Positions 12,430-19,273 of a stretch of DNA of 64,000 bases are shown here, piece after piece. The stretch's first letter is position 1; each line of letters opens with the position of its first letter. Source of the DNA: Salinisphaera shabanensis E1L3A (GTDB lineage Bacteria > Pseudomonadota > Gammaproteobacteria > Nevskiales > Salinisphaeraceae); assembly GCF_000215955.2 (NCBI RefSeq), contig NZ_AFNV02000023.1, positions 1 to 64,000 of the forward strand. Direction: 5' to 3'. The notes under the pieces were generated by a model. The model was not told where the DNA came from, made no database searches, and worked only from the letters and a program-made list of their open reading frames with translations. The position numbers were made by a program, and so were the translations under genes.

Positions 12430-12924
12430 ATGGATAACGACAAGCCGTGTGTCGGCGTCATCATGGGCAGTACGTCGGATTGGGACACCATGAAGGCCGC
12501 GCATGAGGTACTCGACGAGTTCGGCGTGGCCCATGAATGCAAGGTGGTCTCGGCACACCGCACGCCGGACGTGATGCGCGACTATGCGCATACGGCCGAC
12601 CAGCGCGGGCTGGAAATCATCATCGCCGGCGCCGGCGGCGCTGCGCATCTGCCTGGCATGGTCGCTGCCCAGACCCTCGTTCCGGTGCTTGGGGTGCCGG
12701 TGAAAAGCCGTGCCCTCAACGGCCTGGATTCGTTGCTATCGATCGTTCAGATGCCTGGCGGCGTGCCGACTGCGACATTTGCCATCGGCAACGCCGGCGC
12801 GCGTAATGCGGCCTTGTTTGCCGTGGCCATGCTCGCCAATACCCGCCCCGAGCTGCGCAACGCCCTCGCCGAGTTCCGCCAGAAGCAGGCCGAAAAGGTC
12901 GAAAACGACGAGTTGCCGCTATGA
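12430..12924 (+). CDS. purE: N5-carboxyaminoimidazole ribonucleotide mutase PurE
   Basis: This is the class I PurE mutase, which converts N5-CAIR to CAIR in de novo purine synthesis. The 164-aa length is typical. The substrate-binding motif GSTSDWDTM (about 14-22), the SAHRTP loop and the [13 protein letters not shown] segment are all present. A GGGGCGAA-type ribosome-binding site precedes the ATG. The stop overlaps the purK start by 4 bases (ATGA), so the two are co-translated. No PurR-type operator was recognised in the 82-base upstream gap. Confidence 0.97.
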
Positions 12925-14069
12925 GCCGACCGATTCTTCCGGGCGCGACCGTGGGTGTGCTGGGCAGTGGCCAGCTCGGGCGCATGTTTGCGCTGGCTGC
13001 ACGCCGTATGGGCTATCGCGTACATACCTTTTCGCCCGGCGACGATACGCCGATGGGTCAGGTCGCCGATCGTGAAGCCGTGGGTGATTACAACGATCTC
13101 GATGCGGTGGCTGAATTCGCCAGCCGGGTCGATGTGGTGACCTTCGAATTCGAAAATGTACCGTTCGATGCCGCACGTATCGCGAACGAGCATGTGCCGG
13201 TACGACCACGCGGCGAAGTGCTGCATACCGCCCAGCACCGCCAGCGAGAAAAGGATTTTCTACACGGCGCGGGATTTCCCACGGCACCGTTCGAACATGT
13301 GCCCGATCGTGCCGCGCTCGATGCCGCGCTCGAGCGCCTGGGCACACCGGCCGTGCTCAAGACGGCCGGCTTCGGCTACGACGGCAAGGGCCAGGCGGTG
13401 ATTCGTGCGCTGGATGAGGCCGATGAAGCCTGGCAAAGCATTGGTGCCGGCGAGGCGGTACTCGAAGGCTTCGTTGATTTCGAGCGCGAGATTTCGGTGG
13501 TTGCGGCCCGCGGCTGCGACGGCGAGTTCGCGCATTATGGCGTCACCGAGAATCGACACCGCGATCATATCCTCGACGTGTCGATTCCGGACCCGGATAT
13601 CGCCCCCAAAATCACAGCCAACGCGATCGAGATTGCCCGCGGCGTGCTCGAAGCACTCGATGTGGTGGGCGTGCTTTGTGTGGAGTTTTTCTTGAAGCAC
13701 GACGGCGAACTGGTAGTTAACGAGCTTGCACCGCGGCCGCACAACTCCGGCCATTTCAGTTTTGACGCCTGTGTGACCAGCCAGTTCGAGCAGCAGCTGC
13801 GTGCTGTCTGTGCATTGCCGCTGGGCGATACGCGCCGACTGCGCCCATCGGCTATGGTCAATTTGCTGGGCGACTTGTGGGATAACGGCATGCCGGACTG
13901 GCGCGCTGCACTCGCCGACCCGGCGCTCAAGCTGCATCTTTACGGCAAAGCCGAGGCGCGCCCGGGCCGCAAGATGGGCCACATGACGGCGTTCGGCGAC
14001 GACGGCGAGGATGCCGCGCGTCGTGTGATCGCGGCTCGCGACAAGCTTGTGGCCGCTCGCTCGCGCTGA
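12921..14069 (+). CDS. purK: N5-carboxyaminoimidazole ribonucleotide synthase PurK
   Basis: This ATP-grasp enzyme carboxylates AIR with bicarbonate and ATP to give N5-CAIR, the substrate of PurE. The 382-aa length is usual. It opens with the nucleotide-fold glycine motif [19 protein letters not shown]. The ATP-grasp segments [15 protein letters not shown] and [23 protein letters not shown] carry the expected Lys, Glu and Asn ligands. It overlaps purE by 4 bases, and the operon closes with a strong hairpin just after the stop. Confidence 0.97.
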
Positions 14070-14160: not shown

Positions 14161-17088
14161 TTACCGGATCGCACCCAATGACGGGCCGTTGGCGCACGCG
14201 CCGTCTTCATACTCGCTGTCGACCACATTCTCGATCCATTCGTTGAGCAGTTCGAGTGCTTCGTCGTGAACGACGCTATGAGCGATCGGTGGCATCTTCG
14301 CTTCGACATCGTTGGAGCCCATCCGGAATGGCATGATCGACTCGCTCACGCTGCCCGGCTGGATATCGTGCGGACGGCCATCGGAACCAGCGCCGGCCGC
14401 GGTGGGCGTCTTGCAGATCCCATAGGACGAGTTCACGGCGCGGAAGTAATCCAGATACAGACCGGTATTCGAAGCCGCGCCGCCTTCGTTGTGGCAATGC
14501 GCACAGTTGACTTCGAGATAGCCGCGAATTCGTTGTTCGATATCGGCATCGGAATTCGCTGCGTTGCCGCCATCGCCCGGCACGTTGAAATAGGGAATGC
14601 GCTCGATCTTGGTGGCAATCATCGTATTGGTATCCACGCCCAAATCAGCCGGCGCGCCGGTGAGCAGGTTGTGATCGACCCAGTAGGCGATCTGGTTGGC
14701 CATGCCGGCATCATCGTAGGCATAGGGCTTGTTCAGATTGCGTGGTTTCGGGCCGATCGGGGCCGCGCCGGCCACATTGTGCGTGTTGGCATGGCAGGTC
14801 ACGCATTGCGCTGCGTTGGGGATACGATAACTGTCGGTACTGCCCTGGTGCAGGTTGCCGCTATGATCGTCGGTGTAGTTCCAGGACACGGCTGCCGTGC
14901 CGCCGCCCTTGGATAGCCGGGCAACGCGCTTGCCGTTGCCATCGGTTTGCCAGATATAGGGCAGGCCTTCCCAGACTAGGGTGCCGTCGCTGTCTTCACG
15001 CTTGATCAACAGCCGTGTTTCCACGTGATTGACTGTGCCCGCCCCTTCGTCTTCGAAGGAGAATGTCTTGGCGATGACGGTGCCAACAGGAAAGTCGTAG
15101 GCGGCATTCACGTTTTCGCTTCCGTCGCGGTAGGTTGCGGCCGTGCCTTCGGGCATGAATACAAAGCGATACTTGGTGGCGTAATCTGAAAACAGTTGTG
15201 TGTTCAGGTCGTAGGGCGTGCCGCCGTTGCTGTCGGTACTGGGATCCTGTGGATCGTTGAACAGGTGATAGCTGGCCAGATCAGGGCAGTCGACTTCCGC
15301 GAGGGCGTCCCAGTTGATCTGACCCTCGGTGTCACGAGCGCACATTTGTGCAATCTGTTCTTCGGTGGGCCGGCCATTGCCGCCTTCGGGCAGCGTATAG
15401 GTCGCCAGTTCCACCGCCGGCATGCTCGGTAGGGTTTCGCCGTATTCAAGCTGACATTGATGTGGCGATGAATCGTTATCCGCTGCGAAATCGGGGATAC
15501 CCGCGAGTACGCCGGGGAGATAATTCGGATCGCCGAGCTGGCTCGGATCAAGAACCGCATTGAGCGCTTCGAGACCGGCCAAGCCATGGATGTTGGCGAA
15601 TTCGGGCGCACCCGGGCTGCCGGTGTAGGTGTTGTTTTCGATACAGATCCACATCGACGGTTTCTTGCGCGTGTCGCTGTCGTCGAATTTGTAGGCGTTG
15701 TAGCGATCAGCCACGCCGTTGCCGTCTGCGTCGCCGCAATTGGCCGGTTTGACGTCGGTGCCTTCGAACTGCGGTTTACCACGATCGTTTTTGGGCACAT
15801 CGGGTTTGGCGCAATCGTTGGGGCCGTCGTAGACGCCGTCCCAGATGATGTCTGCGCCCTGACCGCCGTTCTTGAGCGCGATGATGGTCGGTAACGCACT
15901 TGAGACATCGCCCTCGGCCAGTGCCTGCAGGTCGGGTGGCGGCATCGAATAGCCCGAATTGTCGAAGCTGTTGTCGTGAATTGACAGCGCTTCGGTATAG
16001 ACGTCCTGACGCAGATCGCCATCGTCGCCGATCAATTCATAGCTGGTGATCAGAATCGCGCCGGTCTGATGATCGCTGAATTCATTGTGGTCGACTTCGA
16101 CCTGATCGTAGGCCAGCGTGATCAGGCCGCTACCCTTGGGCACCTGCGAAACGATACCGCCGGCCGCGAAGTTGTCGAAGTTGTTGTTGCGCGCCACGTT
16201 GTGATGCATGCGCGCCTGGTAGCCGTACTGGGTGAGATACGGCAGGTCGTAGATGATGTAGCCGACGGTATTGCACTCGGCGATGTTGTCGAACATCTCC
16301 GCGCGCTGCGTATTCTCGAATTCATAGCCGGCAACGTTGTAGAGCGCACGGCTGTTCTTGATGATGATGTCGTCGCTCTGGCCGACGTAGATACCGGCAT
16401 CCGACGCGCCCAGGGATTCGACGTTGTCGAGCAGGACGTTGCTCGCCTGCACGGGATAGATGCCGTAGCGTCCGTTGCCCGAGTCGGGCTGATAAGGGGC
16501 CGGGTTGAGTTCACTGATCGGCTCGGCCGGGCATTCGTAATGGATGGCGGTCTGATAGTTGTCGGCGCCGACCGGCGTATCCGCGCTGGACCACATGGTG
16601 CGCACGTTGCGATAGGTAACGATATCGGAACTCTTGACCTTGATACCGTCACCGGGCGTATCGGTGACGGTCAGGTCGGTCACGACCACGCCGCGTACGT
16701 TGCTGATCAGAAAGCCTTCGGCCGTGTCGCTGTCTTCAAAGGAAAGCACGGTGTTGTTCATGCCGGCGCCCTTGACGGTCACGCCTTCGGTGTTTTGCAT
16801 CACCAGGCCGGTGGTGAAGTCGAAAAAACCGGCCTCGAACTCGATGGTGTCGCCCGGCGCGGCTTCGAAGAAGGCCGCTACGGCATCGGTCGTTGCACTC
16901 TCGCCGGGCGAGATGGTGAAAACGCGTGGCTCGGCTGTTTCGTTGCCCGTGTCCGGCGATTCGTTCGAGCTGCCGTTCGAGGCGACCGTCACGTTGTCGT
17001 TATCGTCGCTACAGCCACTCAGTAGAGTAGAGGCGAAAAAGAGCGCGACCACCGCGCCCCGGACAAAACCTGCTCGACTGTTGATCAT
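14161..17088 (-). CDS. Lipoprotein fusing a parallel beta-helix domain to a diheme c-type cytochrome domain
   Basis: This 975-aa exported protein starts with a lipoprotein signal (LSGC, about residues 24-27), then a Ser/Asn/Asp/Glu-rich linker. Residues about 55-420 are a right-handed parallel beta-helix of Asn-rich turns (for example VRGVVVTDLTVTDTPGDGIK). A middle part has a Ca-binding-like DADGNGVADRY. The C-terminal 350 residues hold two heme c motifs, CVTCH (762-766) and CAHCH (862-866). From memory, these halves match two families usually found as adjacent exported proteins, TIGR03805 (beta-helix) and TIGR03806 (HNE_0200/SO2930-type diheme cytochrome), of unknown function. Here they form one chain. 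Surface electron transfer coupled to polysaccharide binding or cleavage is a guess. A LuxR-type regulator lies just upstream. Confidence 0.85.
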   Translation of the reverse strand: MINSRAGFVRGAVVALFFASTLLSGCSDDNDNVTVASNGSSNESPDTGNETAEPRVFTISPGESATTDAVAAFFEAAPGDTIEFEAGFFDFTTGLVMQNTEGVTVKGAGMNNTVLSFEDSDTAEGFLISNVRGVVVTDLTVTDTPGDGIKVKSSDIVTYRNVRTMWSSADTPVGADNYQTAIHYECPAEPISELNPAPYQPDSGNGRYGIYPVQASNVLLDNVESLGASDAGIYVGQSDDIIIKNSRALYNVAGYEFENTQRAEMFDNIAECNTVGYIIYDLPYLTQYGYQARMHHNVARNNNFDNFAAGGIVSQVPKGSGLITLAYDQVEVDHNEFSDHQTGAILITSYELIGDDGDLRQDVYTEALSIHDNSFDNSGYSMPPPDLQALAEGDVSSALPTIIALKNGGQGADIIWDGVYDGPNDCAKPDVPKNDRGKPQFEGTDVKPANCGDADGNGVADRYNAYKFDDSDTRKKPSMWICIENNTYTGSPGAPEFANIHGLAGLEALNAVLDPSQLGDPNYLPGVLAGIPDFAADNDSSPHQCQLEYGETLPSMPAVELATYTLPEGGNGRPTEEQIAQMCARDTEGQINWDALAEVDCPDLASYHLFNDPQDPSTDSNGGTPYDLNTQLFSDYATKYRFVFMPEGTAATYRDGSENVNAAYDFPVGTVIAKTFSFEDEGAGTVNHVETRLLIKREDSDGTLVWEGLPYIWQTDGNGKRVARLSKGGGTAAVSWNYTDDHSGNLHQGSTDSYRIPNAAQCVTCHANTHNVAGAAPIGPKPRNLNKPYAYDDAGMANQIAYWVDHNLLTGAPADLGVDTNTMIATKIERIPYFNVPGDGGNAANSDADIEQRIRGYLEVNCAHCHNEGGAASNTGLYLDYFRAVNSSYGICKTPTAAGAGSDGRPHDIQPGSVSESIMPFRMGSNDVEAKMPPIAHSVVHDEALELLNEWIENVVDSEYEDGACANGPSLGAIR

Positions 17089-17255
17089 CGCTGTTCCCCC
17101 AAAGAACGGCTGCTGCGTTCAGTGCACCGTCCGTTGGCGTCGGAAGGGCGTAAAAACACGAACCTGTATTCATTGATAGCCGAGCGCAGGCGGCAGGTAC
17201 AGCGATAAGGCAGGTAAATTTATACCGGGCTTCGTGGCCCTGGTAGCGCCGAATG

Positions 17256-18205
17256 CTAAAGCGACGAGCGGTGAATCAGCCGTACAAGGGAGCTGCGGCT
17301 GGTTACCCCCAGCTTTCGATACACGCGGTACAGGCGATTGGAGACCGTGGAAGGCGCCAGATGCAGTTCGCGGCCAATATCCTTGAATGTCATACCGCGA
17401 CAGATGCCGGCGACGATTTCACGATCGCGGCGTTGGAGGGCGTCCAGCGGGCCCGCGTAACGAATCGCGATACAGAACAGATCGCCCAGCGGTTCGTTTT
17501 CGATATGAAGGCCGTTGCATATCACGGATTCGCCGGGCGCAGGCAACGCAAAAGGCAAGTGGGGCTGATGCCAGTTCTCGAACGTGGCTTCTACAAGGTC
17601 GATGAAGCTCGGCTGGGCTTGATAAAGCAGACCATGATCGTCGCAGACGGCCGCATGAATACTGGTATGTGCCAGACGATCCCGCCGGGCGACATGAAAG
17701 AAGAAGGCATGGCTTTCTGCGGCGATCAGGTGATAGGCGACTCGTTCGAACATTGCCCGCTCGTAGTCCGTGAACGCCCGTTCCGCGTCGAAACGATACA
17801 AGCTCAGCAACGTATAAATATGTCTGCGTCCATCGTAGGCGAGATAGCTGATTACCCGCTCGACGCCGTAACGGGAAAAACATTGGCGATAGATCGCGCT
17901 TTGCCGAAACGCCGTGTCGTCGATGATCGAACGCATATCCACGGCATCACCGACGTTGGCCATCAATGCCGGCAACATGGGATTGATGGTTTGGGTCTGT
18001 TCGAGCGCGCGTGAGTAGCCCGGCTCGAGCCGAGGGTCGCCACGCTGTGAAATACGCAGGATGTGTAGTTTCCGCAGCCCCAGAGGGCGCCATCGAAATC
18101 GATGACCGAACTCAGCAGCTGCAGCGCGGTTTCACGAAAGCTGTCGGTACGACAGTGTTCGATCGATTGATAGAGATTGGTGATGAAGACGTCGACTCGA
18201 TCCAT
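17256..18205 (-). pseudogene. LuxR-family transcriptional regulator, interrupted by a -1 frameshift
   Basis: Two overlapping frames together encode one LuxR-type regulator of about 316 aa. The N-terminal part starts at 18205 (MDRVDVFITNLYQSIEHC, with AAGGGG upstream) and runs to about 18030. The rest, from about 18029 to 17256, contains the ligand/PAS-like middle and a C-terminal LuxR helix-turn-helix (EIVAGICRGMTFKDIGRELH, then APSTVSNRLYRVYRKLGV). Adding one C to the GGC at 18029-18031 would restore a continuous frame (VATLG-LEPGYSRALEQ). Either the gene is recently broken or the base is a sequencing error. A shorter start at 17978 could yield a C-terminal fragment that keeps the DNA-binding domain. 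Confidence 0.75.
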
Positions 18206-18409: not shown

Positions 18410-19273
18410 CTAGCGGTATTTGTCGTTAAGCGCCCAGAGCCGCGCAACGGTTTCCAGGTCGGGGATGCCGTCGTAGCGCCCGGGGCGAAAATGCATCTGA
18501 AAGGAGACGACGACCGAGTGGGTTGGTTGATCGAGCACGCCGGTGGTGTCGATATCGTAGCCATAGCGTGACAGCGCGGACTGGATGGCAGCGATGCCGG
18601 GCATGGCGTAGCGGAAGCGCTCTCGATAAGCATTGACGGTGGGTTCGTCGGGCCAGGCACCGATGCCTTGCCGATAGAGCTGCTCCCAGGGAAACGCCGG
18701 CCCAGGGTCGATTTTGCGACCGGGTGAAATGTCGGCATGCGCGACGACATTTTCGGGGGCGATGTCATAACGCGCGATAATATCGCGCGCCAGCGTGGTA
18801 ACCGCTTCGATCTGTCCACCGTCAAAACCGCGCCAGACGGTGCCACTGGGCGTATCAACCGGGCCGGGATTGACGATTTCGATACCGATCGAACTGTCGT
18901 TGAGATGGGTTCGGCCGCCCCAGGCACTGCGCCCGGCATGCCAGGCACGCGCGTGCTCGTCGACGAGTTGGTATACCACCGGGTTGCCGCCACGCCGGGG
19001 TGGCTGGTCGGCAACCACGTAATGCGAACTCACGGACGGGCCGGTCAATACCTTGATCGCCCGCGCTTCATCGCCGCCGGTATAGTGCAGCACCAGAAAA
19101 CGCACACGATGATTGAAGGCCTGCGCGGTTTGAGCCTGATCGGCCCAGTAGCCGTTACGTTGCTTGAGCGTGGCGGGCGTACAGCCGGCGATCGCCACGA
19201 CCAGGCCGAGCAGCAGTAACAGCCGGCCCGCACCGGGCTGGCGCGGGCACGGATCGAGTTCGCTCGCGATCAT
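18410..19273 (-). CDS. amiD: AmiD-type N-acetylmuramoyl-L-alanine amidase lipoprotein
   Basis: This 287-aa lipoprotein has a signal ending in IAGC (about residue 31) followed by an amidase_2 (AmpD-like) domain. The zinc-site regions are FLVLHYTG, HAGRSAWGG and VVAHADISPGRKIDPG; the last is the diagnostic H...S.GRK.DPG motif. A C-terminal peptidoglycan-binding-like region follows (IAAIQSALSRYGYDI). AmiD cleaves anhydro- and normal muropeptides from the outer-membrane inner face. The start overlaps the yciA stop by 4 bases (ATGA), so the two are transcribed together. Confidence 0.9.
   Translation of the reverse strand: MIASELDPCPRQPGAGRLLLLLGLVVAIAGCTPATLKQRNGYWADQAQTAQAFNHRVRFLVLHYTGGDEARAIKVLTGPSVSSHYVVADQPPRRGGNPVVYQLVDEHARAWHAGRSAWGGRTHLNDSSIGIEIVNPGPVDTPSGTVWRGFDGGQIEAVTTLARDIIARYDIAPENVVAHADISPGRKIDPGPAFPWEQLYRQGIGAWPDEPTVNAYRERFRYAMPGIAAIQSALSRYGYDIDTTGVLDQPTHSVVVSFQMHFRPGRYDGIPDLETVARLWALNDKYR

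Follow-up and report, generated by a model that had tools for sequence, protein, structure and literature searches.

A fused beta-helix and diheme cytochrome lipoprotein of Salinisphaera shabanensis with a first heme domain that resembles cytochrome P460/c'-beta

The fused gene and its beta-helix half

The window analysed here, a stretch of 64,000 nucleotides from Salinisphaera shabanensis E1L3A (contig NZ_AFNV02000023.1, positions 1 to 64,000 of the forward strand), carries at 14161-17088 on the minus strand a gene for a 975-amino acid (aa) lipoprotein in which an N-terminal parallel beta-helix is joined to a C-terminal diheme cytochrome of the SO2930 type. These two halves had been recognized in an earlier sequence-only reading, in which the strand was not given. 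The finding of the present work concerns the cytochrome half: its first heme domain resembles the cytochromes P460 and c'-beta, a resemblance that is well supported by profile comparison and also suggested by structural comparison of predicted models, and that gives this heme a predicted reactive character. The gene, its signals and its N-terminal features, all on the minus strand, are as follows.

14161..17088, minus strand: gene for the fused beta-helix/diheme cytochrome lipoprotein, 975 aa (open reading frame and NCBIfam matches)
17095..17100, minus strand: ribosome-binding-like GGGGGA just upstream of the ATG (read in the sequence)
17011..17088, minus strand: signal peptide with lipobox LSGC and Cys26, residues 1-26 (sequence and relatives)
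15439..16926, minus strand: right-handed parallel beta-helix, TIGR03805, residues 55-550 (hidden Markov model (HMM) matches, model and structural matches)
16312..16467, minus strand: invariant patch Y208, D230, Y234, E256, E258 and N259, residues 208-259 (87 beta-helix domains)
15298..15438, minus strand: linker joining the beta-helix to the cytochrome, residues 551-597 (model)

The open reading frame (ORF) runs unbroken for 975 codons from an ATG at 17088 down to 14161, and the plus strand across the same interval is interrupted by stops. Since most genomes carry the halves as separate genes, a missed stop codon or frameshift joining two genes had to be considered; this artefact was rejected and is given a negligible probability, because the frame is continuous here and in 50 further ORFs that group together, and because the ratio of nonsynonymous to synonymous substitution (dN/dS) against the sister sequence NZ_JAGHQU010000002.1 (about 78-79% identical) is about 0.11 in each half, indicating purifying selection on both. 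The N-terminus of the protein is a lipoprotein signal, MINSRAGFVRGAVVALFFASTLLSGC-SDD, whose Cys26 is almost invariant in an alignment of 50 fused relatives. With LSGC-S at residues 23-27 there is no Asp at position +2, the pattern of outer-membrane lipoproteins, and the protein is probably located in the outer membrane. Anchoring would be by lipid at Cys26; the attachment to a surface polysaccharide that the sequence-only reading had suggested is putative.

In HMM searches against NCBIfam the protein passed the cut-off of TIGR03805 (277.9 bits against 141.5) and fell just short of that of TIGR03806 (298.8 bits against 313.3), although positions 2-313 of the 314 in the latter model were covered; judged by its place in the tree and by its motifs, the cytochrome half is a SO2930-type relative and not a formal member of TIGR03806. 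Pfam matches were to Beta_helix, NosD (E 2.4e-7) and Cytochrom_C. Membership in the NosD family proper was rejected, as the TIGR04247 score of 14 bits is far under the cut-off of 300. The two CxxCH sites lie at residues 762-766 and 862-866, and when the residues of the protein were shuffled 100,000 times, at least two such motifs arose in only about 3 cases. The single 975-aa sequence matched no solved structure; a profile of the fusion matched phage preneck appendage beta-helices only, and weakly, and a profile of the cytochrome half gave weak cytochrome-type matches only among Protein Data Bank (PDB) sequences, the best being 9l08.

AlphaFold2 prediction from 50 aligned fused sequences yielded a two-domain model (mean predicted local distance difference test score (pLDDT) 84.9, predicted template modelling score (pTM) 0.85), with a right-handed beta-helix until about residue 550 and the cytochrome part after it. 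When the modelled beta-helix was ranked by VIA-align, the leading structures were 8ja4 (Z 32.4), AlgE4 (30.3), the lyase RbmB (30.1), AlgE6 (29.7) and NosD (27.3), so that, as had been proposed earlier, the N-terminal half in the model has a fold of the type that acts on polysaccharides. It shares this fold with the mannuronan C5-epimerases AlgE4 and AlgE6 and with the epimerase/lyase 8ja4 at Z 30-32 over about 300 residues. We take Asp152, His154, Asp178 and His196 of AlgE4 to be its catalytic residues. An epimerase or lyase function was rejected on sequence alignment, in which only D178 has a counterpart, the invariant E258, whereas the places of D152, H154 and H196 hold Tyr, Val/Gly and Val/Gly, at an identity of 17-18%. 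As the catalytic histidines are missing, the beta-helix keeps the epimerase fold and the groove position and not the mechanism. The positions that do not vary in any of the 87 aligned beta-helix domains, which cover all three architectures, include Y208, D230, Y234, E256, E258 and N259, and the same alignment contains no invariant Cys, His or Met site. The beta-helix is a putative substrate holder, the substrate being most likely a carbohydrate or another extended molecule.

The two hemes and the likeness of the first to cytochrome P460

The features of the cytochrome half, again on the minus strand, are listed below.

14665..15297, minus strand: P460/c'-beta-like heme-1 domain, residues 598-808 (structural and profile comparison)
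15067..15069, minus strand: K674, aligned with the heme-crosslinking lysine of P460 (alignments; Table 2 of PMC11928373)
14791..14805, minus strand: heme 1 attachment site CVTCH, residues 762-766 (sequence)
14218..14550, minus strand: heme 2 domain, a class-I-like cytochrome c, residues 847-957 (models; Pfam Cytochrom_C match to domain residues 288-383)
14491..14505, minus strand: heme 2 attachment site CAHCH, residues 862-866 (sequence)
14293..14295, minus strand: M932, which presumably ligates heme 2 on the distal side (no exception in 96 sequences)

The cytochrome part modelled alone reached a pLDDT of 94.1 and a pTM of 0.91. A Foldseek search with this domain returned nothing significant. 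When 999 chains were realigned with VIA-align, the top 16 rows were all cytochrome c'-beta or P460, spanning about residues 590-810 with the CxxCH of heme 1 included, at Z 6.8 to 4.7, values below 8 that can reflect a shared arrangement only, and for this reason sequence profiles were compared as well. In hhalign the SO2930 profile up to heme 1 aligned to members of PF16694 (Pfam P460) with a score of 32.7 (E 1.3e-4), against a mean of 12.5 and a maximum of 21.4 for 150 column-shuffled P460 profiles and 18.6 for the reversed profile. With the CxxCH kept, two unrelated heme families also scored about 30, through the CxxCH alone, and a control free of this motif was therefore needed: after its removal P460 still scored 32.1 over 74 columns, while the scores of the two heme families dropped to 15.5 and 10.3, and the highest score among 37 natural families was 20.4. 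The Pfam P460 model itself gave 13 bits in the 975-aa protein against a gathering score of 27, and 16.1 bits, also below the threshold, in a homologue of the paired form, where profile positions 17-118 of 125 were matched.

The heme-1 domain shares with the P460/c'-beta superfamily a succession of motifs (Arg, P-x-G-x(4)-Lys, a strand ending in Lys, Trp and CxxCH) and probably the fold, and with P460 the Lys at the crosslinking place. It differs from the superfamily in scoring below the Pfam gathering score, in an Arg at the distal carboxylate position, and in its setting, the domain standing between a beta-helix and a second heme domain of the His/Met type; furthermore, the crosslink is in this case a prediction.

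Lys78 of the Methylococcus protein McP460 and Lys106 of NsP460 are heme crosslinkers (PMC11928373, Table 2). The segment F-P-V-G-T-V-I-A-K ending in K674 aligns with P-D-G-A-I-L-V-K (K78) of McP460 and R-D-G-T-V-I-V-K (K106) of NsP460, and the same column holds Leu in the NsP460 K106L mutant chain and Phe61 in c'-beta. The residue is Lys in 96 of 96 cytochrome sequences, fusions to the sugar dehydrogenase domain GSDH included, and a crosslink between K674 and the heme is accordingly predicted from this alignment. E690 is likewise invariant (96/96), R641 and R692 are each conserved in 95 of 96, and R641 falls on the capping residue of McP460, Arg50. In the 96-sequence alignment H766 is the one invariant His or Met that serves heme 1, and heme 1 may be reactive, probably five-coordinate with an open distal site. 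Beyond the CxxCH histidines the only invariant His or Met in these sequences is M932, so that heme 2, with H866 and M932, appears to be an ordinary His/Met electron-transfer heme. A review of the P460/c'-beta superfamily (PMC11928373) does not speak of relatives that are diheme or fused, a combined literature search gave none, and as far as the open full-text literature shows the P460 relation of the SO2930 heme-1 half is undescribed.

Distribution, neighbours and other heme linkages

The survey covered 398 genomes of Pseudomonadota and, separately, 85 genomes of the host order. In the host order TIGR03806 was matched in 58 of the 85 genomes, mostly in frames of about 1000 aa, and the fusion recurs as a continuous frame in the 50 further ORFs mentioned above, Shewanella included. 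Being common among relatives, it is neither new as such nor rare; the TIGRFAM descriptions of TIGR03805 and TIGR03806 already mention a possible fusion of the pair. Among the 398 genomes a strong TIGR03806 match was counted in 42, with TIGR03805 adjacent in 32 and fused in 7, the remaining 3 being GSDH fusions. The halves are therefore usually separate neighbours (32 of the 39 genomes with both), as the earlier reading held. TIGR03805 above its cut-off was found in 45 genomes, all of them tied to a c-type heme: an SO2930 gene is the neighbour in 32, is fused in 7, and in 6 the beta-helix protein has a C-terminal monoheme domain of its own. The beta-helix family is thus joined to c-type heme in two ways, and the view of the earlier reading that the two halves act together is supported. 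A relative on a Bacteroidota plasmid has neither the partner nor a CxxCH, so that the rule of heme linkage is confined here to Pseudomonadota.

Fused and paired SO2930 forms fall in one tree and share the order of the two domains, the lipoprotein signal and the two CxxCH sites, whereas the fusion of the host order is about 100 aa longer and lies below the TIGR03806 cut-off. Among the 96 cytochrome domains of the tree, the fused ones, 51 in number, all stand in one starred group, which also holds the second copies of Shewanella and requires two label changes; this is consistent with a single fusion and later duplication and loss. The long fused form of two Limnobacter sequences (beta-proteobacteria) is nested inside the group of the host order, which suggests horizontal transfer; in one of the two, a gene of the ZrgA zinc-uptake type begins at the stop codon of the fused gene. 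In three Shewanella loci the fused gene is followed by a second SO2930-type gene. At another locus (G057:C1) no more than 8 kb separates a fused gene from a divergent SO2930-type gene, which adjoins a cytochrome gene.

In Shewanella oneidensis, SO_2931 is listed among five outer-membrane cytochromes as a diheme lipoprotein, with SO_2930 beside it (PMC12175506, PMC5357785). SO_2931 is probably this fusion, an assignment that rests on gene layout and not on the MR-1 record. In the open full-text literature the SO2930 family is mentioned only in lists of Shewanella cytochromes, and the papers found assign no function to SO_2931.

In the host, the next gene upstream, 167 nt away and on the strand of the fused gene, encodes a LuxR-type regulator with a GerE domain (240 aa; 17256-17978, minus strand) and is kept only in the sister species; purE-purK (12430-14069, plus strand) is convergent with the fused gene, an Amidase_2/PG_binding gene is found at 18410-19273 on the minus strand, and a thioesterase gene is also among the neighbours. 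Cytochrom_C has 20 matches in the host, and a type II secretin, also present there, could help to place the protein on the surface. Elsewhere, genes for TonB-dependent receptors adjoin the paired genes at seven loci, and an AraC-type gene, with GliR, QhpR and CypR as best profile names, adjoins seven of the fused or paired loci. A Novosphingobium pair stands amid TonB receptors, alcohol and aldehyde dehydrogenases and a dehydrogenase dependent on pyrroloquinoline quinone (PQQ).

The six sampled genomes with TIGR03805 and without TIGR03806 (L122 to L127), and Ruegeria pomeroyi from outside the sample, carry at the C-terminus of the beta-helix protein a single CxxCH domain and, downstream, an MP motif. 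In L122, L123, L125 and L127 the order is TonB receptor, AraC, diheme cytochrome c, MauG/MbnH-like diheme enzyme and the beta-helix with monoheme domain; in L124 the receptor is reversed and such an AraC gene is absent, in L126 only the MauG-like gene is present, and in Ruegeria the order is AraC, cytochrome c, peroxidase, TPR protein and beta-helix. In these clusters, too, the beta-helix family is tied to c-type hemes, but through a different diheme enzyme and a beta-helix that bears its own class-I-like heme.

At six loci (L063, L064, L067, L134, L135 and L136) the TIGR03806 domain stands behind GSDH (glucose/sorbosone dehydrogenase), a PQQ-type sugar dehydrogenase, and these fusions form one starred group of the tree; some carry CBM and F5/8 domains. 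They reach 2369 aa, with CBM26, PKD, F5/8 and planctomycete-type cytochrome domains. GSDH-cytochrome-CBM proteins of T. turnerae have been likened to AA12 quinohemoproteins (PMC12055684). The 975-aa protein resembles the AA12 PQQ-dependent pyranose dehydrogenase with its cytochrome and the bacterial GSDH fusions, in the latter of which the homologous diheme module is at the C-terminus; it differs in having a beta-helix in place of the PQQ propeller.

Candidate functions of the fused protein

We propose, with a probability of about 45%, that the protein is a lipid-anchored oxidoreductase of three modules, i.e., a substrate-holding beta-helix, a P460-like reactive heme 1 and an electron-exit heme 2. 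The invariant Asp/Tyr/Glu face of the beta-helix would be where the substrate is held; heme 1, in a beta-sheet domain like that of P460/c'-beta with an open distal side and the invariant Lys at the crosslinking place, would be the reactive heme; and heme 2 would pass electrons on to the periplasmic cytochrome pool, in a direction that we infer. The sequence-only reading had left the choice between a redox enzyme and an electron shuttle, and the P460/c'-beta-like domain around heme 1 favours the former over the latter.

Several points weigh against this proposal, in addition to the low Z values of the structural ranking. Beta-helices also serve as mere binding or scaffold modules. K674 was placed by alignment and not from coordinates, and its geometry, the distal pocket and the distances between the hemes are putative. 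Arg692 occupies the position of the P460 catalytic carboxylate (Glu96 of NeP460, Asp102 of McP460), four residues before the strand-end Lys, with the invariant Glu690 two residues before the Arg, and hydroxylamine oxidation is for this reason not predicted. The potential of the P460 heme is low, about -300 to -424 mV (PMC11928373), which would make it an odd acceptor for a PQQ dehydrogenase, so that heme 1 may differ in the GSDH fusions or may lack the crosslink. Finally, since the fused gene has no conserved neighbours in the host order beyond the sister species, the neighbours there give no guide to the substrate and nothing was inferred from them.

Among the alternatives, a plain cell-surface electron conduit of the kind of the Shewanella outer-membrane cytochromes, in which neither heme does more than pass electrons on and the beta-helix serves as a stalk or a scaffold for docking, would agree with the listing of SO_2931 as an outer-membrane cytochrome, but it seems to us rather improbable: two hemes reach only a short span, heme 1 is without an invariant second His or Met and sits in a ligand-binding fold with an invariant Lys, and the invariant face of the beta-helix exceeds what a scaffold needs. 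Moreover, deletion of MtrC and OmcA alone already lowers the cathodic current by 88.2%, most of the 95.7% lost on deletion of all outer-membrane multiheme cytochromes. The diheme module could instead merely take electrons from a beta-helix that is itself the oxidizing catalyst, by analogy with the GSDH fusions, where the same module stands C-terminal to the dehydrogenase as in quinohemoproteins such as AA12. We consider this unlikely, as heme 1 has reactive-heme features of its own and no organic redox cofactor was detected in the beta-helix, nor do we know of one in parallel beta-helices of this fold.

Handling of copper or iron, with a NosD-like beta-helix binding the metal and the cytochrome setting its redox state for uptake through TonB receptors, draws on the Pfam and structural matches to NosD, on the siderophore-type TonB receptors beside many pairs and on the MbnH/MauG-like enzyme of the second cluster type. 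It appears more unlikely still, given that NosD ranks below the epimerases and is unspecific at that level, that the beta-helix lacks an invariant Cys, His or Met site, and that the profile names of the AraC neighbours are not those of metal regulators.

For the proposed oxidoreductase a wider and more doubtful extension may be considered, in which the SO2930 module would represent a widespread and so far undescribed class of surface-anchored P460-type enzymes with a Lys-crosslinked heme and an exit heme, the substrate being held by a beta-helix linked covalently or by operon or, in paralogues, by a PQQ-dehydrogenase domain, and P460 chemistry reaching beyond nitrogen compounds. The fusion itself is ordinary; the P460 relation of its heme-1 half is the new point, and it is testable. 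SO2930 cytochromes are common in Pseudomonadota and have so far no assigned function, and their placement near P460 gives a specific prediction, an absorption band shifted towards 440-460 nm that would depend on one lysine. If true, P460-type hemes would extend to surface enzymes linked to carbohydrate-type beta-helices, and the proposal would bear on SO_2931, an outer-membrane cytochrome long listed in a model organism.

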